Source: Planctomycetota bacterium (GTDB taxonomy: Bacteria > Planctomycetota > Phycisphaerae > Phycisphaerales > Phycisphaeraceae). From it: DNA of 64,000 nt. The stretch is from NCBI GenBank assembly GCA_026386955.1, contig JAPLMQ010000297.1, forward strand, positions 1-64,000, given 5' to 3'. The notes beneath the pieces are model-generated. The model was given only the letters and a program-made list of their open reading frames with translations. It searched no databases and was not told the DNA's origin. Each line of letters begins with the position of its first letter. Positions within the stretch are counted from its first letter, which is position 1. Below, in pieces: positions 4,376-32,873 of this stretch. Made by a program: the position numbers and the translations under genes.

Positions 4376-5542
4376 TCACGCCCCGTTCAGCCAGGCCTCG
4401 TCGAAGAGGGCCAGGTCCAGATCGCTCGTCATCGGGCGAATGTCGTGGTAATGCGAGATCGCCACGAGGATCCGGCCGTCGTCGAGCTGGATCAGGTTGT
4501 GGTTGCTGAGCTGGTTGGTGCCGGACTCCACGGCGATGACGCGCGGGCTGCCCCAGGTCCGCCCGCCGTCCGCGGAGAGGGCGGCGACCAACGGGTGGCG
4601 CGGGAACTGCGTCTTGGAGGAGACGTTGTTCCACACCACCAGCAGCTTGCCGCTCCGCAGCTTGGTCATGCGGGCCATCGATTCGGGCGCCGGCAGGGGC
4701 GAGGGCCTCGAGGGGCTCCATGTCTGGCCACCGTCGAGCGATTCGGTCTGATGAAGGCAGCCGCCGGCGGTGCGGAAGAGGCAGAAGAGCCGGCCGGGCT
4801 CCGTCTCGGGATTGGTCTCGGCGAACTGAATCTCCATCACGCCCCGCGTCGTGTCGACGTGGATCTCCCCGCTGCGCCTCCACGTCCGGCCTTGGTCGTC
4901 GGAGAGCAGGCAGGCCCCCGTGTAATGCTGGTATCGCTTGGCCACATCGACCCGGGCCGGGTCCATGAAGGTGAACCCCGCGACCAAGCGGCCGCTGCCC
5001 AGTTGGATGAGGCAGTCGGCTGAGCCGTAGAACTCAACGCCCGGCAACGCCTTCCCGCCCGAGATGCTCAAGCAGGGGATCTCCACGCCGTGGTCGAAGA
5101 AGCGCCCGCCGTCGGCCGACCGCCGGAGGAAGATCCTCGTCTTGCTCTTGAAGTAGTCGCTGCCCGCCGTCGCCACCCGGCGCGATTCGTCGACCTCGAT
5201 CGCGTGGTGCACGGACTGGTTGAGGAGCATGAGGGCCTGGTTCGTGTCGCGTAGGCGCAGCGTCAGCGCGTAGTAGGGCACGCCGCCGGGGAAGTCGGCC
5301 ATGTAGACCTGCGGGTCGGACCACGTCAGCCCACGGTCGCGCGAGGTCGAGAAGAGCTTGACCAAGCCGCCGGAGCATTCGTCGAAGTCGTAGGCGTTCC
5401 AGTGCAGTAGCAGCTCGCCGTCGGCGAACTGGTGGAACTCGGGGTTCTGGTGGTAGTCGGCCCCGGTGCCCCCGCGGATGAAGGAGTGGTAGGCGAGCTT
5501 GCCGGGCGTGAAGCCCATCGGCGAGATGCGGGCGATCTTCAA
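4376..5542 (-). CDS. Sialidase-like BNR/Asp-box exo-glycosidase
   Basis: A six-bladed propeller is indicated by four Asp boxes: STSRDRGLTW, LSDDQGRTW, SLDGGQTW and SADGGRTW. An N-terminal Arg (HSFIRGGTG) could belong to the arginine triad of exo-sialidases. The frame is open further upstream, but a TTG at 5542 follows AAGGA at a 7-nt spacing and gives 388 residues; an ATG at 5518 is the alternative. No signal peptide is visible. It converges on the lyase-like gene with 23 nt between stops and follows a small membrane-protein gene by 28 nt, suggesting an operon with that gene. Planctomycete members of this family are often called exo-alpha-sialidases, but the true substrate is unproven. Confidence 0.78.
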   Translation of the reverse strand: MKIARISPMGFTPGKLAYHSFIRGGTGADYHQNPEFHQFADGELLLHWNAYDFDECSGGLVKLFSTSRDRGLTWSDPQVYMADFPGGVPYYALTLRLRDTNQALMLLNQSVHHAIEVDESRRVATAGSDYFKSKTRIFLRRSADGGRFFDHGVEIPCLSISGGKALPGVEFYGSADCLIQLGSGRLVAGFTFMDPARVDVAKRYQHYTGACLLSDDQGRTWRRSGEIHVDTTRGVMEIQFAETNPETEPGRLFCLFRTAGGCLHQTESLDGGQTWSPSRPSPLPAPESMARMTKLRSGKLLVVWNNVSSKTQFPRHPLVAALSADGGRTWGSPRVIAVESGTNQLSNHNLIQLDDGRILVAISHYHDIRPMTSDLDLALFDEAWLNGA

Positions 5543-5570
5543 GCGAGAATCCTTCGTTCTGGTTTGGCGA

Positions 5571-6167
5571 TCACCATCCCGCGGTGAGCGACGGATCATG
5601 TGTTTGCCGAGGCGGCTTGCCGGCTTCCATCTCGAGTATTTCGCCTTGCATCGCATTTCCATCCAAGAAGTCGATGAAGGTCTTCAATTTGGATGGGAGC
5701 GGATCCGACAACTGCACGTCGTGGGTCGGAAATCCATGCTCAACGGCCAACGCCGGCAGGGAAATCGAGATGCCATCAGACCTAGCGTACATGACCGTTG
5801 TCATCCGCTCTCCACCCTCAAAGGCCAATGTGACATGGTAGTACAGTCCAGTGCCGGCATTTTGGCCTTTGTATGAAGCGGCACGCATCGCGTCGGCCAG
5901 AGGGCCCAGGACTTCGGGGTCGTCGCAAAGCAGCCGCCGTCCCTGTAGATCCGTCTCAACGCGAACCAACCTCACCGCCGCGTCGCCAGACAGAAGCCGG
6001 GCCAACTTGGCCTCGCCTGCCGCCTGAACCCACCAACTTCGACAAACAACCGCCACGAAGATCGCCACCACCAACAGCGCCGCAAAGAGCGCCCGTCGAG
6101 CCGTGCGGGACATCGGCCGGGGCGAGTCCTCTGGATTGCCTTGCGGTTCGTCGATGGATTGGGGCAT
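5571..6167 (-). CDS. Hypothetical single-pass membrane protein
   Basis: The ATG at 6167 (MPQSIDEPQ) gives 198 residues and discards a low-complexity upstream extension. Residues around 20-40 (ALFAALLVVAIFVAVVCRSWW) form one clear membrane helix, with a short charged cytoplasmic N-terminus and a soluble domain outside. The outer domain has a pattern of strands (LLCDDPEVLGPLADAMR, YYHVTLAFEGGERMTTVMY) but no family I recognise. It lies 28 nt upstream of the sialidase-like gene on the same strand, so the pair is probably co-transcribed. No strong ribosome site is seen before the ATG. Confidence 0.65.
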   Translation of the reverse strand: MPQSIDEPQGNPEDSPRPMSRTARRALFAALLVVAIFVAVVCRSWWVQAAGEAKLARLLSGDAAVRLVRVETDLQGRRLLCDDPEVLGPLADAMRAASYKGQNAGTGLYYHVTLAFEGGERMTTVMYARSDGISISLPALAVEHGFPTHDVQLSDPLPSKLKTFIDFLDGNAMQGEILEMEAGKPPRQTHDPSLTAGW

Positions 6168-6372: not shown

Positions 6373-8025
6373 TCACTCCGCCTCCAGCACCACGCGGAAG
6401 CCGATGTCGTCGCTCTGGATGTTGCGGGCCTTGGGGTAGCGTGAGGCGGCGCGGCAATCGACGTCGTAGTTGCGGAAGCTCCCGCCGCGGACGGCGACGG
6501 CGGGGATGCGCTTTTTGGGGTCGACGGGGGCGAGGCCGGGGTCGGTGATCACCGCGTCGGGGTCGCGCTCGGTCATCAGGTCGGCGCACCATTCCCAGAT
6601 GTTGCCCTCCATGTCGTAGAAGCCCCACGGGTTGGGCTTGAGCTTCCGCACGGGGTGCACCTGGTTCTTGCTGGTGGTCAGCGACCAGCCGATGTCGCCC
6701 AGCTTGGCGGTGCCGGCGTAGGGCTCGTCGGTCCCGCCGCGGCAGGCGTATTCCCACTCGGCCTCGGTGGGCAGGCGGTAGGTCTTGCCCTCCTGGGCGC
6801 TGAGCTTCTTGCAGAATTCCGTGGCCATGGTCCACGTCAGGTTGGTCACGGGCAGGTCGTCGCCCTTGGCGGCGCTGGGGTTCTCCTCCATGACCAGGCG
6901 GTACTGCTCCTGCGTCACCTCCGTCTCGCTCATGAGGTAGCCGCGGGTGAGCGTCACGCGCAGGCGCGGCTCGCCGCGGCCGGGCTGGCCCGTGGGCGTG
7001 CCCATGAAGAACTTCCCGGCCGGCACGCGCAGGAAACGCATGCCCATCGCGTTGGTGACGACCAAATACTTCTCGGCCTGGGCCATCAGCTCCAGCGCGG
7101 CGGCGTTGTCGGCCTGCAGCTCGAGCGCCTCGCGCAGACGGTCGCGGGCCGCCATCGCGCCGGTGGCATTCATGTTGGCCCGCGCGGCCCGCAGCAGCCG
7201 CTCGACGCGCTGGTTGACCGCGTCGGCCTGGGCGGCATCGTACTGTTTCGAGGCGGCGGTCCACTTGTCCGCCGCTTCGCGGAAGTGGTCCTGCTCGAAG
7301 GCCTTGGTCGCCTCGGCGTTGGCCGATTCGCCGGCGGTCCAGTTCGCCTGCGAATCCTCCGCGGCCTCGACCTTCTCCGCGGCGGCGCGCGAGGTGTCCG
7401 CGGCCGCCTTGGCCTTGTCGGCCGCGGTGATCTCGGCGGCGGCGGTGAGCAGGGCGTCGCAGGATTGATAGGTCGTCTGGTAGCCCGCCAGCGCGTCGGC
7501 CCATTTCTGCTGCCCCGCGGCCGTCTCGGCGATCTTGAACTGCTCGTTGACCTTGGCGCGGCGCTTGTCGATGGTGGGCGAGGCGGGGATGGCCGCGACG
7601 CGGCGCACGGCGGCGACCACCTGCTCGCGCAATTGGATGGCCGCCGGCGGGGGCTGGCCGCCCGGCCGCACCGACGACATGGAGATGTTCGGCAGGGGCG
7701 GGAGCGTCACGGTCAGGCCCTGCGGCGAGCCGCTGGCGACGGTCGTTCCGTTCATCGAGACGTTGCTGGGAAGGCCGTTGACCGTCATCGACGGCCCGGG
7801 CCCGGGCGCGCCCATCGGGGGAGCGCCTTGGCCCTGCATCGGCATGCCGGGGGTGCCGGGGTTTCCGGGACCGCCGGGGTTTCCGGGCATGCCGGGGCGT
7901 GGCGAGACGGCCGTGGGGGCGTTGGAGGAGTTGTCCGCCTTCCGCGAGCCCGTCGCCCAGAGCGCGACGCCGCCCAACACGACCGCCAAGCCGCAACCCA
8001 CCAGCGCCAGCGTGCTCTTCTCCAT
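6373..8025 (-). CDS. Membrane-anchored SUMF1/FGE-fold protein with collagen-like linker
   Basis: The 550-residue product has an N-terminal membrane helix (LALVGCGLAVVLGGVALWATG), a Gly/Pro-rich linker at about 43-75 (PGMPGNPGGPGNPGTPGMP), a helical Ala-rich region at 140-310 and a C-terminal SUMF1/FGE domain at about 315-550 (RLPTEAEWEYACRGG, GFYDMEGNIWEWCADL, IGFRVV). True formylglycine-generating enzymes use two cysteines near the end of the domain; here the matching segment GGSFRNYDVDCRAASR keeps only one, so sulfatase activation is unlikely. It is divergent from a Ser/Thr kinase gene with which it shares a 178-nt promoter region. Confidence 0.85.
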   Translation of the reverse strand: MEKSTLALVGCGLAVVLGGVALWATGSRKADNSSNAPTAVSPRPGMPGNPGGPGNPGTPGMPMQGQGAPPMGAPGPGPSMTVNGLPSNVSMNGTTVASGSPQGLTVTLPPLPNISMSSVRPGGQPPPAAIQLREQVVAAVRRVAAIPASPTIDKRRAKVNEQFKIAETAAGQQKWADALAGYQTTYQSCDALLTAAAEITAADKAKAAADTSRAAAEKVEAAEDSQANWTAGESANAEATKAFEQDHFREAADKWTAASKQYDAAQADAVNQRVERLLRAARANMNATGAMAARDRLREALELQADNAAALELMAQAEKYLVVTNAMGMRFLRVPAGKFFMGTPTGQPGRGEPRLRVTLTRGYLMSETEVTQEQYRLVMEENPSAAKGDDLPVTNLTWTMATEFCKKLSAQEGKTYRLPTEAEWEYACRGGTDEPYAGTAKLGDIGWSLTTSKNQVHPVRKLKPNPWGFYDMEGNIWEWCADLMTERDPDAVITDPGLAPVDPKKRIPAVAVRGGSFRNYDVDCRAASRYPKARNIQSDDIGFRVVLEAE

Positions 8026-8122
8026 GGGACTTTCCCTCGGGTGCCGGGTCCGATCGCCTCAAGCCTGTCGGCCGTGATCTTAGCAGCCCGACGGAGCAGC
8101 CCGGCGGATGTTCCCGCCTTCG

Positions 8123-8151
8123 TTGACGCCCGCTACGATCACTCCTACGTT
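8123..8151 (+). promoter_or_regulatory. Candidate sigma70-type promoter for the kinase/ABC genes
   Basis: TTGACG (8123-8128) and TACGTT (8146-8151) are separated by 17 nt and lie 52 nt upstream of the kinase start. The opposite strand has TAAGAT at 8077-8082 as a possible -10 for the divergent SUMF1-fold gene, without a convincing -35. The remainder of 8026-8203 holds no other signal that I can see. Confidence 0.45.
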
Positions 8152-8203
8152 GTGTCGGTTCAGGCGGATTTCGAGGAGTGGCCGCAACGGCCCGGAGAGC
8201 ACG

Positions 8204-10198
8204 ATGTCGGAGTCGCCTCGGGTCCCATGCACGAACTGCCGGCGGCCGCTGCCGCCCGTCGTCGACCCCTCGACGCGCTATGTGGACTGCCCGGGCTGCG
8301 CGACGCGCAACGACCTGGCCTCGGGCGCGACGCTGGTCGGCGGCTGCGACCGGCCCGGCGCGGCGGCGCCCGAGGGCCTCGGCGCGGGCAACGCCGACTC
8401 GCCCAATGCCGACGCGGCCGCGGACCTGACCGGCCGACTCCTCGGCGGGCGCTACCAGCTCGACGCGCTGATCGGGCGCGGGGGGATGGGCTCGGTTTAC
8501 CGCGGGACGCAGGTGCGACTCCACCGCACCGTGGCGGTGAAGCTGCTGGGCTCGCATCTGCTGCGCGACCGGCTCTTCGTCGAGCGCTTCCGGCGCGAGG
8601 CCGAGATCCTCGCGACCTTCGACCATCCGCACATCGTGCAGGTCATCGACACCGACGTCGACGCCGAGAGCAATTCGCACTACATCGTCATGCACTACGT
8701 CGGCGGCTCCGACGGGCGCTCGCGCAGCCTGAAGGAACTGCTCGAGCAGGGGCCGATCGACGTGCGGCAGGCGCTGCGCATCCTCATCCAGGCCTGCTCG
8801 GCCCTGCAGTACGCCCACGCGAAGGGGATCATCCACCGCGACATCAAGCCGGGGAACATCCTCATCGACGCCGAGGGGAACGCGCGCCTGGCCGACTTCG
8901 GCATCGCCAGCACGCGAGGCGGGGGCGACTCCTCGCTGACGCTCGCGGGCGAGTCGATGGGGACGCCGGACTACATGTCGCCCGAGCAGCGGGCCGACCC
9001 GACGAAGGTGACGCCGCAGTCGGACATCTACTCGCTGGGCGTGATCCTCTATGAGATGCTCACGGGCGTGCTGCCGCGGAACGAGCGCTCGCCGCAGCCA
9101 AGCCGGGTGCGCGACGGGGTCGACCCGAGGCTGGACAAGATCGCCAGCGACGCGATTCAGAGGGACCCGGCGAAGCGCACCGCCAGCGCCGACGCGATGA
9201 GGCAGCGGATCGAGGAGGTGGCGGGGACGTCGGCGGGCGTGCCGCGGCCTGAGGCGCCGGAGGCTCCGGGGGTTCCGCAGCCGCCGAAGGCGCCGCGGCC
9301 CGTCGCGCCTCCGACCGGCGGCATCACGGAGGGGACGCCCCGGCCGCGCGTTGGGCTGATGGTGTTCGGGGGAGTGGTGGTGCTGGGCGCGCTCATCGCG
9401 GCGGGCGTGGCGTGGCAGTGGCAGGCGAATCGGCCTGTGTCGACGCGATCGTTGGTCGAGAACACGGCCGCGCCGGCGACGCCGCAGGTTGGATCGTCGA
9501 CGCCCACTCAGACACCGACACCAACCCCGGCTCCATCTCCAGCGACCGCGCCTCATGCCGAGCCCGCGCCGGCCGCATCGCCTGACATCGCCGTCGCGAT
9601 CACCCGGGGGAACGAGCCGGGCGTGAACCTCTCGGTCCGCACCAAGCCGGCTCCGTCGCCAGCACCCGCACCCCCGGCTCCGACTCCTGTTCCGGCCCCC
9701 AAGGAACCGGCAGCCTCGCCCGCGACCGTTCCCGCGCCTGCGCCGTCCGCCGAGCCCGTCGCCGCGGACCTTCTGGCCGCCATCGACAAGGGCGACGACG
9801 CCGAGGTGCGGCGGATCCTCGTCGCCCGCCCGAGCCTCGCCGGCGCCGCGGGCAGCGATGGCTCGACGCCCATGCACCGCGCCGCCGCCAAGGGGCGCAC
9901 GCTTTCGATCGCCATGCTCGTCGCCGTCGGTGCCGACCTGAACACGGCGCGGCGCGACGGCGACCGCCCGCTGCACGTCGCCACCCGAGAGATCCAGGCC
10001 GACGCGGTGAAGGAACTGCTCCGCCGCGGAGCCAACCCGAGGCTGGCCGGCGCGAAGGGGCAGTCATCGGAGAAGATCGCGGCCGAGTCGTATGCGGGGC
10101 AGGAGATCATCGACCTGATCCGCCGTCCGTCGCTCGCCGGGCCGCCGACGCCGCTGCCGAGCATGACGCCGAAGTCCGGCGCGCCCTCGGGCGGCTGA
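8204..10198 (+). CDS. Zinc-ribbon / Ser-Thr protein kinase / ankyrin-repeat membrane protein
   Basis: Starting at ATG 8204 (MSESPRVPCTNC) the product has 664 residues. An N-terminal CxxC...CxxC zinc ribbon (PCTNCRRPL, VDCPGCATR) precedes a complete Hanks-type kinase at about 80-345, with a glycine loop GRGGMGSVY, catalytic HRDIKPGNIL, DFG motif DFGIAS and GTPDYMSPEQ. One membrane helix lies near 383-405 (VFGGVVVLGALIAAGVAWQW). A long Pro/Thr/Ala linker then leads to three ankyrin-like repeats at about 525-645 (STPMHRAAAKG, DRPLHVATRE). The kinase is thus cytoplasmic and the ankyrin domain extracytoplasmic. Its stop lies 23 nt before a double-FHA ABC transporter, whose phosphothreonine readers are plausible targets. 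Confidence 0.9.
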   Translation: MSESPRVPCTNCRRPLPPVVDPSTRYVDCPGCATRNDLASGATLVGGCDRPGAAAPEGLGAGNADSPNADAAADLTGRLLGGRYQLDALIGRGGMGSVYRGTQVRLHRTVAVKLLGSHLLRDRLFVERFRREAEILATFDHPHIVQVIDTDVDAESNSHYIVMHYVGGSDGRSRSLKELLEQGPIDVRQALRILIQACSALQYAHAKGIIHRDIKPGNILIDAEGNARLADFGIASTRGGGDSSLTLAGESMGTPDYMSPEQRADPTKVTPQSDIYSLGVILYEMLTGVLPRNERSPQPSRVRDGVDPRLDKIASDAIQRDPAKRTASADAMRQRIEEVAGTSAGVPRPEAPEAPGVPQPPKAPRPVAPPTGGITEGTPRPRVGLMVFGGVVVLGALIAAGVAWQWQANRPVSTRSLVENTAAPATPQVGSSTPTQTPTPTPAPSPATAPHAEPAPAASPDIAVAITRGNEPGVNLSVRTKPAPSPAPAPPAPTPVPAPKEPAASPATVPAPAPSAEPVAADLLAAIDKGDDAEVRRILVARPSLAGAAGSDGSTPMHRAAAKGRTLSIAMLVAVGADLNTARRDGDRPLHVATREIQADAVKELLRRGANPRLAGAKGQSSEKIAAESYAGQEIIDLIRRPSLAGPPTPLPSMTPKSGAPSGG

Positions 10199-10221
10199 CG
10201 ACGCCGCAGGAGCCCTGAGCC

Positions 10222-12636
10222 ATGACGTTCCGACTCACATTCACGCTGCCCGGCGAGACCGCCAAGCCGGTGGCGACCGTCGACGTCGCCGCGGGCCAGC
10301 CGTGCCTGCTCGGGCGGAACCCCAAGTCGCAGGTCTTCCTGAGCGACCCGCGGGTCAGCCACGACCATTGCCGGGTCTCGCTCGAGGGCGGGGCGTTGCG
10401 GGTCGAGGATTTGCCCGGCCGCGGGCGCACGCTCATCAACGGCAAGGCGGTCTGGTCACCGGGCCAGCTCAATGACGGCGACGAGCTTTCGCTCAACGGC
10501 CTGGTGCTGCGCGTGGAGTGCCGCACGCTCGACGGCGCGTCGCCCGCGAAGCCGGCCGCGGCGATGCCGCCCATCCCGAGGCCGCCGCCTGTTCCGAGAG
10601 CGCCCGTCCCGGCGTCGATGCCCGCCGACGGCAGCCAGACGTTGGTCTCGCCGACGCGCCTCCGGCCGGTGGGGCCCGCCGCGGGGCCGCCGGTCTTCAC
10701 GCTCCGGGCCGCGACGCACACGCTGGGGCGCGACGCGGAGTGCGACCTGCGTTTGGACAACCCGGCGATCTCCCGTCGCCACACGCTGATCCGCCGCGAC
10801 AACGACTCGTGGGTCGTCGAGGACCTGCGCAGCTCCAACGGCACGTTTGTCAACGGCCTGCGCGTCCGCCGGCCGCGGAAACTCGCGGTGGGCGACCGCA
10901 TGACCGTCGGCCCCTATCGGCTGGAGTTCGACGGCACGCGCCTGGTCAGCCGGCGCAGCGAGGGCGGCGTGCGCATCGCCGTGCGTGGCATCGGCAAGGA
11001 GGTCCGCAATCGCGAGACGGGCAAGCCGCTCTGGCTGCTCAACGACATCACGCTCACCTTCGAGCCGCGCGAGTTCATCGGCCTGCTCGGCGGATCGGGC
11101 TGCGGCAAGTCGACTTTCCTCGACACGCTCAACGGCCGGCGGCCCGCGACCCGCGGCTCCGTCCTCTACGACGGTGACGACCTCTACCACAACTTAAGCG
11201 CCCTCAAGTCCGACATCGGCTACGTCCCGCAGGACGTCATCCTCCACGAGGGGCTGCCCGTCGCCGACGCGCTGAGCTTCGCCGCCCGCCTCCGCCTTCC
11301 CTCCGACACCTCGCGCGCGGAGATCCAGACCAGCATCGACCGCGTGCTCGCGACCGTCGGCCTGACCGAGCGGCGGTCGACGCTCATCCGCAACCTCTCG
11401 GGCGGGCAGAAGAAGCGGGTCTCCATCGCGATGGAACTCCTCAGCCGGCCTCGCGTGCTCTTCCTCGACGAGGTCACCAGCGGGCTCGACCTGGGGACCG
11501 AGCGGCAGATGATGGAGCTCTTCCGCAACCTGGCAGACGACGGCCACACCATCATCTGCATCACCCACCACGTCGACAGCCTCGAAATGTGCGACATGGT
11601 CGCCCACTTCATGAAGGGGCGGCTGACCTTCTGCGGCCCGCCCGAAGCCATCAAGCGGCAGTTCGGCGTCGAGGAGCTGCGCGAAATCTACACCGCCGAG
11701 GCGTCCCAGAAGCCCGAGGAGTGGCAGCAGAAGTTCCAGCAGACGCCGGTCTACCGCGAGTTCGTCCAGGGCCGGCTGCAGAACGACCAGAGCGTGCACT
11801 CGCTGCCCAAGCGACGCCAGCCGCGGCGCACGGCAGCGCCGCTGAGGCAGTTCGACATCCTGCTCGGTCGCTACGCCCGCCTGCTCACGCTCGACTACCG
11901 CAGCATTTTGCTCAACCTCGCCCTCGCACCGGCGATCGCGCTGCTGCTCTGCATCCTCGCCGCCTCGATCAAGGTGCCCGACCAGCGCGTGACGCCCGAT
12001 GACTTCAGGCAGTACGCCACGCGGCAGAACATCCTCTGCTTCGGGGCCGTCACCACCGTGCTCTTCCTGGGGCTCTTCGGCTCGATCCGCGAGATCGTCA
12101 AGGAGCTGCCGATCTACCGCCACGAGCGGTTCATGAGCCTGCGCGTCGGGCCTTACGTGACGAGCAAGATCATCCCGCTGGCCATGATTGGGGCGCTGCA
12201 GTCGATCATGGTCGCCGCGATCGCCGCGAACGTGGGCGGGCTCGACGCAAGCACGCCGCTGCAGCAGGCGGGGCTGCTCTTCCTCGCCTCGTTCGCCGGC
12301 ACGATGATGGGCCTGGCCGTCTCGGCGGTCGCGCCCTCGACCGACTGGGCGGTGATCCTGATGATCGTGGTGGTGATCCCGCAGATCCTCTTCTCGGGCG
12401 CGCTGGTGCCGACGACCGGCCTCGCGGCGGTGATCTCCAAGCTCTTCGCCCCCGCCTACTGGGGGCAGCAGGCGATGACCGGCATGCTCGACGAGACGAC
12501 CCGCCGGCTCATCGACGCCCACGCGGCGAAGGGCAAGCTCGCCTGGCTCAGCGGCGCGGTGATGCTGCCGATCCATGCGATCGTGTACGGCGTCTTGTCG
12601 ATGCTCTTCCTGTGGAACAAGGACCGGCGGAAGTGA
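10222..12636 (+). CDS. Double-FHA ABC transporter, ATPase fused to permease (ABCG-type exporter)
   Basis: The 804-residue protein carries two FHA phosphothreonine-binding domains (about 25-95, GRNPKSQVFLSDPRVSHDHC; about 165-235, GRDAECDLRLDNPAISRRH with SSNGTFVNG), joined by a Pro-rich linker. An ABC ATPase follows at about 255-470, with Walker A GGSGCGKS near 290, signature LSGGQKKR near 391, Walker B RVLFLDE near 412 and an H-loop His. The C-terminal 270 residues form an ABC-2-type membrane domain with about six helices. This half-transporter layout fits a homodimeric exporter. Lying directly behind a Ser/Thr kinase gene, it is likely gated or recruited by phosphorylation; the cargo is unknown. 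Confidence 0.92.
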   Translation: MTFRLTFTLPGETAKPVATVDVAAGQPCLLGRNPKSQVFLSDPRVSHDHCRVSLEGGALRVEDLPGRGRTLINGKAVWSPGQLNDGDELSLNGLVLRVECRTLDGASPAKPAAAMPPIPRPPPVPRAPVPASMPADGSQTLVSPTRLRPVGPAAGPPVFTLRAATHTLGRDAECDLRLDNPAISRRHTLIRRDNDSWVVEDLRSSNGTFVNGLRVRRPRKLAVGDRMTVGPYRLEFDGTRLVSRRSEGGVRIAVRGIGKEVRNRETGKPLWLLNDITLTFEPREFIGLLGGSGCGKSTFLDTLNGRRPATRGSVLYDGDDLYHNLSALKSDIGYVPQDVILHEGLPVADALSFAARLRLPSDTSRAEIQTSIDRVLATVGLTERRSTLIRNLSGGQKKRVSIAMELLSRPRVLFLDEVTSGLDLGTERQMMELFRNLADDGHTIICITHHVDSLEMCDMVAHFMKGRLTFCGPPEAIKRQFGVEELREIYTAEASQKPEEWQQKFQQTPVYREFVQGRLQNDQSVHSLPKRRQPRRTAAPLRQFDILLGRYARLLTLDYRSILLNLALAPAIALLLCILAASIKVPDQRVTPDDFRQYATRQNILCFGAVTTVLFLGLFGSIREIVKELPIYRHERFMSLRVGPYVTSKIIPLAMIGALQSIMVAAIAANVGGLDASTPLQQAGLLFLASFAGTMMGLAVSAVAPSTDWAVILMIVVVIPQILFSGALVPTTGLAAVISKLFAPAYWGQQAMTGMLDETTRRLIDAHAAKGKLAWLSGAVMLPIHAIVYGVLSMLFLWNKDRRK

Positions 12637-12691
12637 CGCCGGCGCGGCAGGCCTTGGCGACGATCGACGCCGATCGGCGACGACCTGCCCC

Positions 12692-13123
12692 TCACTTCCG
12701 CCCCGCCCCCGGAGTCCCCGGAGTCCCCGGAGCCCCCGCCGCGTCGCGCAGCATCTTGGCCGTCCGCTCCTCGTGCATCTGCGACTTGCCGAAGCCCGGC
12801 AGCGCCCCCACCGCGACCGCCTGGGCCTGCGACTCCGCGTAGTTCGAGATCAGCATCATCCTCGCCCCGCGCGGGGCCAAGGCGCGGATCAGTTCGATCC
12901 CGCCCTCGCCCTCGAAGCCGTAGTCGAGCACGCGGTTGACCAGCAGCAGCGCATCGGGGCCCGCCATCCGCTCGGCCGTCTTGCGGTCGTGGGCCACGCT
13001 GATCGAAACCGCACCCAACGCAGTACGCACGACGTAGTCCAACGAGGCCGTGTCGGCCCCGCAGTGCCCCACCAGCACCACCTGCTTCACCGGACCTGCG
13101 GGTCCACGATTCGACACAGCCAT
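12692..13123 (-). CDS. Receiver-like (CheY-fold) small protein
   Basis: The ATG at 13123 follows AGGGAG at good spacing and gives 143 residues; an upstream extension would run into a repeat element and is rejected. The pattern of beta strands and helices (VVLVGHCGADTASLDYVVR, DALLLVNRVLDYG, GIELIRALAPRGARMMLIS) resembles a response-regulator receiver, but the usual phosphoacceptor Asp and Lys cannot be placed with certainty, so it may be a pseudo-receiver. The C-terminus ends in a Gly/Pro run (APGTPGTPGAGRK) encoded by tandem CCCCGGAGT units. It converges on the ABC transporter gene with 55 nt between stops. Confidence 0.6.
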   Translation of the reverse strand: MAVSNRGPAGPVKQVVLVGHCGADTASLDYVVRTALGAVSISVAHDRKTAERMAGPDALLLVNRVLDYGFEGEGGIELIRALAPRGARMMLISNYAESQAQAVAVGALPGFGKSQMHEERTAKMLRDAAGAPGTPGTPGAGRK

Positions 13124-13182
13124 GGCTGACGACTCCCTGTGCAACAACCGCGAATCCGGCATGCCTCGCCGCGAGGCTCCTG

Positions 13183-13364
13183 TCTGGTGCCACATGTCAT
13201 CGTACTCGTGACATGTGCCGGCCGACGGACGGCTCAGGATGCCTCGGCGACCTCATCACGCCGCCGTTGGAGATTCGTCCGTGACGTTTCAACGCCTCCG
13301 TCAGAGGTGGGTCGCACATCCTCCCAAGACACATGTCACGAGTACGACGACATGTGGCACCAGA
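13183..13364. repeat. Paired inverted hairpin repeat, family A copy 2 (REPIN-like)
   Basis: The arms at 13183-13217 and 13330-13364 match as reverse complements in 34 of 35 positions. The hairpin stem reads CACATGTCA with TGACATGTG, so relative to copy 1 a C-G pair has become T-A on both sides of the stem. The right arm has one extra change that opens the pair next to the loop. The middle is 112 nt and unlike copy 1, but the same CCGG/ACGGA and AAGA inner flanks are present. It lies upstream of the receiver-like gene and downstream of the HAD gene. Confidence 0.9.
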
Positions 13365-30473: not shown

Positions 30474-32873
30474 ATGCCGAATGCACCGCATCGCCCCCCC
30501 ACCGTCTCCAGCGTCTCGCCACGCGTCCCGGCCATCCTGCTGGGCCTGCTCGGTCTCCTCCTCGCGCTGGGCAACCCCGCCTGTGCCCGCGCCGACGACG
30601 CCGCCTACCTCGCCCGGCGCGACGCCATGCTCCCGGGCTACGCCAAGCGCGAGCTGAAGTTCGGCGTCAACCCGCTCATCTGGGTCGACACCGAGCGCTG
30701 GTGCGTCGCCCACGCCGCGCTCACCCTCGACACCCGCCTCGAGGACGCCAACAAGTACCTCAGCGAGGTCGTGGGCGTCTCGCTCTCGCACGGACTGGTG
30801 GCCGACATCGACGTGCAGGTGACCGACCTCCTGCGCACCTATCTGCAGTTCAAGGACAGCCCGCGCCTCACGCCTGCCGCGAAGGAGCGCCTGCTCAGGT
30901 TCTTCCGCGAATGGGTCGTCCCCAACCAGGACCGCAACCGCACGGCCGACACGACCTACGAGTGGCCCGGCGAATACACCGAGAACCACAGCCTCAACAT
31001 CCTCACCGGCGCCTACCTCATCGACGTCGCGCTCAACCGCGACCGCAAGCTGCACCGCGAGCTGCTCGAGCGGTTCCTCGCCGACCGGGCCCGCTGGGGC
31101 TGGAGCGAGTTCCACTCGCCCAGCTACGCGATCGTCACCGCCAAGGCGCTGGTCTGCCTCAACGACTTCGCGCCCGACAAGAACATCGCGACGGCCGCCA
31201 AAATGACGCTCGACATCCTCGCGATCGAGTTCGCCAACCACGGGCTGAACACCTGGCGCGGCGTGCCCTTCCTCCGCGGGCTAAAGCGCGAGGTCGACAA
31301 CACCTCCAACTCCTTCTATCCGCTCGCCCGGCTCCTCTTCGGCGACAAGACCGACCCCAAGCACGAGGCAAGCGACCCTTGCCTCGTCCACCTGCTCACC
31401 AGCTCCTACCGCCCGCCCGAGGTCGCCGTCGCGATGCTGGCCGACCCCGTGCAACGCGGCAAGTACCTCATGCAGGCCGTGCTGACCACCGGGCCCGACC
31501 GCCTGCGCGTCCCCACCGCCGTCTGGGTCACGCCCAACCTCACCGTCGCCTCGGCCCTGGGCGCGGGGCATTACTACGGCGGATGCTACTGGTCGATCAG
31601 CTTCGCCAGCGCGCCCCAGAACGTCATCACCGGGAACTACGACGTCGACCGCAACATCGTCCAGCGCAAGAACGTCCTGGCGACCTTCGGCTCCGTCACC
31701 TGGAACGGCCCGGGGCTCAAGAAGACCACCGAAGGCAACATCACCATCGGCGGCGACGGGAAGGCGATGATCGGCCAGATCGACCTCGCGGAGGACTGCC
31801 ACCTCTTCCTCGCGGCCGACCCGGGCGACTACGCGACGCCCGCGGAGTTCAAGGTCGCGCTGACCATGATGCAGGCGACCTTCGCCGACGGGGTGCTGAG
31901 CTGGACCATGCCCGACGGGAAGAAGATCCGCTGCGTGAACCGCCGCGACGGGAAGCGCTGGGCCGTCGAGCAGGTCTTCGAGGACGACAAGCTCGTCCGG
32001 CTCGACACCGACATGCTCTACGCCACGCCCTGGCTGCAGAGCGTGCGCGACAGCAAGGTGATCGAGGTACTCTGGGCGGGGAAGAAGCAGGTCTACGACT
32101 TCCGCGACATCGCCAAGCCGGCGGTCCGCAGCGAGTCAGGCCCGTTGACCAAGCTGCCCGATGAGGAGATCGACGGGACGCTGGGCATCAAGCTGCTCTA
32201 CATCCCCCCGGGCCAGTTCCCGATGGGCTCGTCCGCGGCCGAGGGGCGCGAGCACGAGCGCCCGCAGCGCTGGGTCGACGTCGACGGCTACTACATCTCG
32301 CGCACGGAGGTCACCTTCGGGCAGTACAAGCCATTCCTCGCGGAAAACCCCTCGGCCGCCAAGCTGCCCGAATGGTTCGCGAAGGAGTGGGGCAAGACCG
32401 ACGAGTACCCGATGACGTGGGTCTCGTGGGACGAGGCCAAGGCCTTCTGCGCCTGGCTCTCGAAGAAGACCGGGAAGAAGTTCGACCTGCCCACCGAGGC
32501 CCAGTGGGAGAAGGCCTGCAAGGGCTACTCGCACCGCATCTACCCCTGGGGCGCGACCTACCACGGCACCGAGTCGGGCACGCCCAACGAAACCTACCTC
32601 CCCGTGGCCAACAAGCCGACGGACATCAGCCCCTTCGGCGTGCTCGACATGGCGGGCAACGCATGGGAGTGGTGCAACGACTACTACGACCCCAAGGCCT
32701 ACAGCACGCAGCCCGACGCGAACCCGCTCGGCCCCGAGAAGGGCACGCTGCGCGTCTTGCGCGGATCAGGCTGGAATTTCGACCCCGACACCTTCCGCTG
32801 CAGCTACCGCACCCGCAGCGAGCCGGGGCTGAAGTCGGTGCACGTGGGGTTCAGGGTGGTGCGGGTGCCGTGA
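30474..32873 (+). CDS. Exported toroid-like domain fused to SUMF1/FGE-fold domain
   Basis: ATG 30474, with GAGG 7 nt upstream, gives 799 residues beginning with a signal peptide (VPAILLGLLGLLLALGNPACARA). Residues 45-560 have a helical first half (NPLIWVDTERWCVAHAALTL, YEWPGEYTENHSLNILTGAY, FHSPSYAIVTAKALVCL) followed by a strand-rich half, resembling the alpha/alpha-toroid plus beta-sandwich plan of polysaccharide lyases such as heparinase-like enzymes. The C-terminal 225 residues are a SUMF1/FGE-fold domain (FPMGSSAAEGREHERPQRW, DLPTEAQWEKACKG, DMAGNAWEWCNDYYD, VGFRVV). Its terminal segment LRGSGWNFDPDTFRCSYRTR keeps one Cys, so FGE chemistry is unlikely. A secreted glycan-degrading or glycan-binding role is inferred. 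Confidence 0.8.
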   Translation: MPNAPHRPPTVSSVSPRVPAILLGLLGLLLALGNPACARADDAAYLARRDAMLPGYAKRELKFGVNPLIWVDTERWCVAHAALTLDTRLEDANKYLSEVVGVSLSHGLVADIDVQVTDLLRTYLQFKDSPRLTPAAKERLLRFFREWVVPNQDRNRTADTTYEWPGEYTENHSLNILTGAYLIDVALNRDRKLHRELLERFLADRARWGWSEFHSPSYAIVTAKALVCLNDFAPDKNIATAAKMTLDILAIEFANHGLNTWRGVPFLRGLKREVDNTSNSFYPLARLLFGDKTDPKHEASDPCLVHLLTSSYRPPEVAVAMLADPVQRGKYLMQAVLTTGPDRLRVPTAVWVTPNLTVASALGAGHYYGGCYWSISFASAPQNVITGNYDVDRNIVQRKNVLATFGSVTWNGPGLKKTTEGNITIGGDGKAMIGQIDLAEDCHLFLAADPGDYATPAEFKVALTMMQATFADGVLSWTMPDGKKIRCVNRRDGKRWAVEQVFEDDKLVRLDTDMLYATPWLQSVRDSKVIEVLWAGKKQVYDFRDIAKPAVRSESGPLTKLPDEEIDGTLGIKLLYIPPGQFPMGSSAAEGREHERPQRWVDVDGYYISRTEVTFGQYKPFLAENPSAAKLPEWFAKEWGKTDEYPMTWVSWDEAKAFCAWLSKKTGKKFDLPTEAQWEKACKGYSHRIYPWGATYHGTESGTPNETYLPVANKPTDISPFGVLDMAGNAWEWCNDYYDPKAYSTQPDANPLGPEKGTLRVLRGSGWNFDPDTFRCSYRTRSEPGLKSVHVGFRVVRVP

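Follow-up and report, generated by a model that had tools for sequence, protein, structure and literature searches.

A Threonine Kinase and FHA-Domain ABC Exporter Gene Pair in Planctomycetota as a Probable Switch of the PknF-Rv1747 Kind

The stretch of DNA analysed here (64,000 nucleotides of contig JAPLMQ010000297.1, assembly GCA_026386955.1, from a Planctomycetota bacterium; hereafter the window) contains a gene for a transmembrane Ser/Thr kinase, P0001, followed by a gene for an ABC exporter with two FHA domains, P0002, and flanked by genes for a receiver-like protein (P0003) and a SUMF1-fold membrane protein (P0004). The arrangement raises the question of whether the exporter is controlled by phosphorylation from the neighbouring kinase, as proposed in a preliminary description of the sequence that placed kinase, exporter and receiver-like protein in one block. 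Kinase control read through FHA domains is supported by co-conservation of the two genes, by the grouping of the nearest pairs in the kinase and the exporter tree alike and by a studied analogue, PknF-Rv1747 of Mycobacterium tuberculosis; the receiver-like gene is judged to lie outside the module. Since similar pairs recur in distant bacteria and resemble PknF-Rv1747, the exporter is probably switched by the kinase, and a two-gene switch of that kind is the reading favoured here with some confidence.

Co-conservation of the kinase and the exporter

Conservation of the pair had been named in the preliminary description as a check of the proposal. Other genomes were picked through the exporter alone (E<=1e-60) and the best 6-16 candidates per genome were scored, so that genomes scored as exporter-negative may still hold one. 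With the window's own genome counted each time, the exporter was present in 3 of 61 relatives, 5 of 150 genomes of the class and 7 of 149 genomes of the phylum; the three samples overlap in their negatives, and the positives comprise 12 distinct other genomes. The exporter is rare across the genomes sampled. An immediate same-strand kinase neighbour was found in six of these 12 genomes, upstream of the exporter at loci L030, L031 and L041 and downstream at L032, L042 and L045. The expectation from kinase counts, assuming one gene per 1.1 kb, was 0.20 adjacencies (p about 8e-9); the counts derive from the best 100 candidates scored in genomes G200, G326, G243 and G192, a limit partly covered by doubling them, which gave 0.41 expected adjacencies (p about 5e-7). 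Moreover, the exporter's neighbour was the best match to P0001 genome-wide, among the matches listed, in G200, G144, G326 and G197, which hold at least 61, 7, at least 98 and 13 matches, respectively, at E<=1e-15. The check thus came out in favour of the proposal: the kinase-exporter pair is real and is co-conserved above chance.

At two further loci a kinase is present at a distance, separated from the exporter by one intervening gene at L033 and by about 5 kb at L029. No kinase was found near the exporter among the called open reading frames (ORFs) of L034, L043, L044 and L046; the calls were made with a GC-position heuristic that missed the kinase of L042, shown by other searches, and that may have missed further adjacent kinases or relatives of P0003 or SUMF1.

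Two explanations of these results other than a two-gene switch were considered. The kinase and exporter could be co-located because both are expressed under the same envelope condition, the kinase acting on other targets. Kinases are abundant, with at least 98-100 matches in G326, G243 and G192; however, a pThr-reading (phosphothreonine-reading) exporter beside a threonine kinase is a specific match, and linkage is kept though the gene order varies, being divided equally among the six adjacent cases. Co-location of this sort is considered improbable. Alternatively, the FHA domains could read pThr from other kinases or from a third protein, as with Rv2623 on FHA I of Rv1747, the neighbouring kinase being one of several inputs. 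This would agree with the half of the other exporter loci that have no adjacent kinase, with the 10 matches to P0001 (itself counted) at E<=1e-20 in the window's own genome, and with the importance of pT237 in Rv2623 for its binding to FHA I of Rv1747 (PMC5549992; here and below, papers are cited for the accessible parts of their text). Against it, no kinase listed for the whole genome is closer to P0001 than the neighbour in 4 of the 12 genomes, kinase-rich ones among them, and it is regarded as unlikely.

Anatomy of the pair and the proposed switch

The features of the locus are collected in Table 1. In agreement with the preliminary description, P0001 is a Ser/Thr kinase with one transmembrane helix and ankyrin repeats. 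A Pro-rich spacer lies between helix and repeats, and from the single helix the repeats are predicted to lie outside the cytoplasm. The N-terminal zinc ribbon that had been described is seen as a pattern of four cysteines, the basis for the name; no zinc-ribbon Pfam model was among the matches of P0001 at E<=0.01. Assignment as a PASTA kinase was rejected since the score against NF033483 was below the curated cut-off (288.7 versus 450 bits) and the Pfam list contained Ank and no PASTA domain.

P0002 combines all of its domains in one chain. The Pfam FHA match comprised two stretches (E 6.7e-34), and the top NCBIfam score was to a White-like pigment precursor permease, far under the cut-off (168 versus 736 bits). 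The kinase gene lies upstream on the same strand with a gap of 23 nt, and a stretch AGGAG is present 9 nt ahead of the P0002 ATG. These results bear out the double-FHA exporter at that spacing in the preliminary description. The spacing suggests that the two genes likely form one operon. A scan of genome contigs with P0002 gave four weak loci of 25-40% identity, which were left unused.

Table 1. Features of the kinase-exporter locus and of the flanking genes (window coordinates).
Feature	Position	Strand	Basis
Transmembrane Ser/Thr kinase P0001, 664 aa	8204..10198	+	Pfam Pkinase, residues 84-298, E 1.3e-46
N-terminal zinc-ribbon-like motif of P0001, CxxC-x16-CxxC	8228..8299	+	Cys 9, 12, 29, 32
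P0001 Thr43 in ATLV, candidate autophosphorylated docking site	8330..8332	+	TLV shared with exporter linker
Protein kinase domain of P0001, residues 84-298	8453..9097	+	Pfam match; HRDIKPGN and DFG in translation
Sole transmembrane helix of P0001, residues 385-403	9356..9412	+	Hydropathy 2.48 across 19 residues
Ankyrin repeats of P0001, predicted extracytoplasmic	9776..10039	+	Pfam Ank_2, residues 525-612, E 1.9e-9
ABCG-like half-transporter P0002, 804 aa, FHA1-linker-FHA2-NBD-TMD (NBD, nucleotide-binding domain; TMD, transmembrane domain)	10222..12636	+	Pfam, hydropathy
FHA-1 of P0002, about residues 31-90 (limits by eye)	10312..10491	+	Pfam FHA stretch, alignment
Inter-FHA linker of P0002, Pro/Ala-rich, residues 102-157 (56 residues)	10525..10692	+	
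P0002 Thr140 in QTLVSP, candidate phosphoacceptor	10639..10641	+	Shared 3-mer
FHA-2 of P0002, residues 167-230	10720..10911	+	Pfam FHA stretch, alignment, PDB matches
ABC ATPase domain of P0002	11038..11481	+	Pfam ABC_tran, residues 273-420, E 2.7e-29
ABC-2 type membrane domain of P0002	11992..12483	+	Pfam ABC2_membrane, residues 591-754, E 8.5e-20
Pseudo-receiver P0003, convergent, judged outside the module	12692..13123	-	Family profile, neighbourhood searches
SUMF1-fold membrane-anchored protein P0004, divergent	6373..8025	-	FGE-sulfatase E 6.4e-40, N-terminal helix

The pThr-contact residues differ between the two FHA domains of P0002. FHA-2 keeps all five contacts of the canonical set (Gly, Arg, Ser, His and Asn). 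In FHA-1, aligned with reference contacts taken from PMC5549992, Gly, Arg, Ser and His are kept and the contact Asn is replaced by Gly, unlike FHA I of Rv1747, which retains it (Asn69; PMC5549992). Since FHA-2 alone keeps all five residues, it is the likelier reader of the candidate kinase pThr, judging from the alignment. The top PDB matches of FHA-2 were the FHA domains of OdhI and GarA (2e-10), those of Rv1747 being weaker (6ccd, 2.5e-8; 6cah, 3.4e-5). Among the nine exporters with an aligned FHA-1-like stretch the Asn is, as read from the alignment, retained in L030, L032 and L043, the stretch of L030 being unrecognised by Pfam. Two or more Pfam FHA stretches are present in 7 of the 12 other exporters, with three in that of L043. 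An association of two or more FHA stretches with an adjacent kinase was considered and not retained, the difference (5 of 7 versus 1 of 5) being not significant (one-sided p about 0.12, by hand).

In the proposed switch, an envelope signal would be received at the C-terminal repeat domain and activate the kinase. The kinase would then autophosphorylate its flexible N-terminus, for which Thr43, beyond the CxxC motif, is a candidate, and would offer a docking site to the exporter, probably to its FHA-2, following the precedent of PknG and GarA. The docked kinase would phosphorylate the inter-FHA linker, with Thr140 as candidate and PknF-Rv1747 as precedent. The linker pThr could then be bound by FHA, either within its own subunit or in the adjoining one, with a change in half-transporter assembly or clustering and hence in transport.

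Trees were constructed from 52 kinase domains and from 13 exporters. The kinases of the window, L031 and L041 form a 100/99 group together with an unpaired paralogue of G200 (L051), and the exporters of the window, L031, L041 and L029 likewise form a 100/99 group. Thus, the pairs of the window, L031 and L041 group together in both trees. L030 and L033 were flagged as long branches in the kinase tree. Beyond this group, the linked kinases do not form one clade and adjacency is unclustered on the exporter tree, from which it follows that kinases may have been swapped; the pairing looks common to the closest group and may have been re-formed elsewhere.

The preliminary description had suggested an outside ligand for the ankyrin domain, which is a putative stimulus. 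The parts of the linked kinases behind the kinase domain vary. Ankyrin repeats are found in the window and in L031 and Sel1 repeats in L033, and in the L042 kinase the kinase domain is followed by a double zinc ribbon, with a helix that comes late. No transmembrane helix was found by the helix threshold in the L045 kinase, and none in that of L041, yet a hydrophobic stretch is visible in the sequence of the latter. N-termini with Cys pairs like those of P0001 occur in the adjacent kinases of L031, L041 (first pair CxC), L042 and L045. Given the varying C-terminal ends, the module seems to consist of a single core of kinase and exporter to which different sensors can be fitted. Two other kinases of G200 were observed: the L051 paralogue of the exporter-adjacent kinase (7828-9855, + strand) has a SUMF1 domain behind its transmembrane helix, and a second kinase with WD40 repeats (L041, 3417-7154, - strand) flanks the exporter on the opposite side.

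The kinase N-termini, between CxxC motif and kinase domain, were compared with the exporter linkers. The window linker has three Thr, one of them in QTLV. Similar threonine peptides were seen in kinase and linker of the window (ATLVGG and QTLVSP), L041 (ATIVAG and RTIVAA) and L031 (HTMAVP and ATMAVA). A 3-mer starting with T was common to three of five cognate pairs. Of 103 cross combinations, among whose kinases are seven that have a Cys-pair N-terminus and no partner, 2 shared one (nominal Fisher p 4.8e-4, for a match defined post hoc and combinations that are not independent). When the cognate linkers were shuffled, the chance of a match was 3.2% for the window, 5.1% for L031 and 0.5% for L041. 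The wider motif T[LIVM][VAM], first noticed by eye, occurs in four of five adjacent Cys-pair kinases versus one of seven unpaired ones (L051) and in five of nine exporter linkers (window, L029, L031, L041 and L043), the other four exporters having no inter-FHA linker; no single case is significant because the shuffle chances are 7-20% per sequence having the motif. These exploratory comparisons are a lead, and suggest one phosphothreonine tag for both docking and switching. A more specific form of the idea is that the kinase N-terminus copies the Thr peptide written on its cognate exporter, so that one pThr code would recruit the exporter through FHA and then switch and cluster it, and that the code co-varies (TLV/TLV, TMAV/TMAV, TIVA/TIVA) and would insulate each pair from other kinases. 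This form is held tentatively and is rather doubtful. Shared tags, if real, would explain how one among up to about 100 cellular kinases stays specific for one exporter.

A number of observations weigh against control of the exporter by its neighbour. The exporter was found in none of 36 other members of the window's family (E<=1e-60), 6 of the 12 other exporter genomes are without a directly adjacent kinase, and two of the six adjacent kinases, those of G039 and G071, are not their genome's top match to P0001. The linked kinases required six changes for eight rows, a value as low in 33 of 500 shuffles, the eight kinases labelled as paired including that of L033; for adjacency, scored on the tree of exporters, the value was as low in 216 of 500 shuffles. 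FHA-1 of the window exporter is without the pThr-contact Asn, and a single Pfam FHA stretch was found in 5 of the 12 other exporters (L030, L033, L034, L044 and L046). The shared T-initial 3-mer is absent from two of the five cognate pairs (L042 and L045), and its match elsewhere is post hoc. Finally, a scan of 7900-13300 detected neither a sigma-70 promoter-like site nor a terminator-like one, of which about one is expected there by chance, and the operon is for this reason argued from spacing. A two-gene switch nevertheless remains the more probable account of the pair.

Flanking genes

P0003 by itself had no Pfam or NCBIfam match at E<=0.01, and a single-sequence AlphaFold2 model was unusable (pLDDT 39). 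Against the PDB, a 25-member family profile, built from P0003 and 24 of the 28 homologues found, matched response regulators weakly, with a best E of 6.7e-4. Seven of these 25 sequences matched Pfam Response_reg at E<=10 (best 9.3e-4); P0003 was not one of the seven. Where a phosphoacceptor Asp would be expected, each of the 25 sequences in the alignment has Asn63, a placement for which the register against true receivers is uncertain, and the Asp of a nearby LDG is not invariant. The gene is convergent, as the preliminary description had it, and its family shows a weak likeness to receivers, with no conserved phosphoacceptor Asp. The family has the pattern VGHCG.D ... LLLVNRVLDGRF ... LISNY.DAQ ... 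GFGKS, in which Asn63 and His20 are invariant and Cys21 is nearly so.

P0003 was considered as part of the module and rejected. The ORFs called around the exporter in the 12 other genomes included no P0003, which speaks against the block in which it had been placed with the pair. The family occurs in relatives where no exporter was found; with a threshold of E<=0.001 and the window's genome counted, 33 of 81 relatives have it. Within the window's taxonomic family no further searched member had the exporter; in G039, which belongs to that order, both the exporter and a P0003 homologue occur, on different contigs.

P0004 lies outside the 8204-13123 block. Its FGE-sulfatase match and N-terminal helix confirm the divergent SUMF1-fold membrane protein of the preliminary description. 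At the position that we take to be the first active-site Cys of the human enzyme P0004 has Asn (RGGSFRNYDVDC), and for this reason it may not be a formylglycine-generating enzyme. Its link to the kinase-exporter pair is weak: at L046 a SUMF1 protein near the exporter parallels P0004, and the L051 kinase with its SUMF1 domain is a hint of the fusion type.

It is conceivable that SUMF1 protein, kinase, exporter and receiver-like protein form one signalling system. All four genes adjoin in the window, the L051 SUMF1 domain belongs to a paralogue of an adjacent kinase, the SUMF1 protein of G192 (L046) is divergent and one gene from the exporter, and G039 combines exporter and P0003 homologue, on separate contigs as noted. 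However, in addition to the distribution of P0003 described above, L046 was the sole one of the 12 loci at which phmmer with P0004 detected a SUMF1 relative close to the exporter, and SUMF1 domains number 8 in the window's own genome and 9 in G192 (24 in G200 and 5 in G144). A four-gene system is considered highly improbable, and the pair of kinase and exporter is retained as the module.

Elsewhere in the window, a further SUMF1 domain is located at 32196-32864 (+ strand) within an 847-codon open frame, and 4376-5662 (- strand) encodes a sialidase-like protein with repeats resembling Asp boxes by eye (S.DRGLTW, S.DQGRTW, S.DGGRTW). Rfam at gathering scores gave nothing across the window.

Comparison with known systems

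The closest studied counterpart is the two-gene pknF-Rv1747 operon of M. tuberculosis, in which Rv1747 is a substrate of PknF (PMC3908365) and has the same domain order as P0002 (PMC9312465). When PknF phosphorylates Rv1747 1-310, the formation of condensates is promoted, and PknF is present in them as well (PMC9312465). The likeness lies in a Ser/Thr kinase gene that immediately precedes the gene of a half-transporter of the G subfamily, which combines in one chain FHA1, disordered linker, FHA2, nucleotide-binding domain and transmembrane domain, and concerns architecture and gene order, not orthology. On the side of the window, the kinase has a CxxC N-terminus and C-terminal ankyrin repeats, and FHA-1 of the exporter lacks the Asn of Rv1747 FHA I. 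As the same design has been published for M. tuberculosis, the idea of a kinase paired with an FHA exporter is less new than the preliminary description may have assumed. The papers found on it concern that species, and searches of the accessible literature turned up none that deals with FHA-ABC exporters of Planctomycetes or of bacteria other than mycobacteria.

The docking step is borrowed from PknG, whose N-terminal extension, once autophosphorylated, recruits the FHA substrates (PMC8546545). PknG with GarA or OdhI resembles the window pair in combining a kinase that has an autophosphorylatable N-terminal extension and a metal-binding module with an FHA substrate (PMC8546545), and differs in that the kinase has a rubredoxin-like domain and TPRs and acts on a small soluble regulator instead of an exporter. 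Kinases of Planctomycetota with periplasmic TPR, WD40 and SUMF1 domains have been published (PMC11032199); they are similar to P0001 in being single-span proteins with repeat or SUMF1 domains that are mostly periplasmic, and the term 'ABC transporter' does not occur in the accessible main text of that paper.

Plasmids were also searched, and 15 records had an exporter relative at E<=1e-30, of which eight were examined with gene tables that are incomplete. In Brasilonema octagenarum pBOCT2 a kinase gene is upstream of an FHA-ABC gene on the same strand with no annotated gene between, and the exporter has two FHA-like stretches by eye. The Brasilonema kinase differs from P0001 in having no CxxC N-terminus and in carrying repeated TLF and ETVP ahead of its transmembrane helix, with four (E/P)TLF and three ETVP in the kinase and ATVFEPP, alike not identical, in the exporter linker. 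These repeats (L122, 2355-4199, + strand) are a candidate multivalent FHA docking array. In Rhodococcus jostii pRHL3 the kinase is the next gene to the FHA-ABC gene and convergent, and in an M. alvei plasmid it lies beyond two genes from the exporter relative. No kinase was annotated within 5 kb of the relative in M. branderi, Nostoc C052, Mycolicibacterium CBMA 213 or M. adipatum, and the Streptomyces plasmid stretch has no annotation. The mycobacterial plasmid proteins are 32-34% identical to the exporter in the alignment. Overall, the kinase-adjacent FHA exporters of unrelated genomes and of a cyanobacterial plasmid suggest that the design studied in M. tuberculosis belongs to a module that recurs among bacteria and whose sensor domains can be exchanged.

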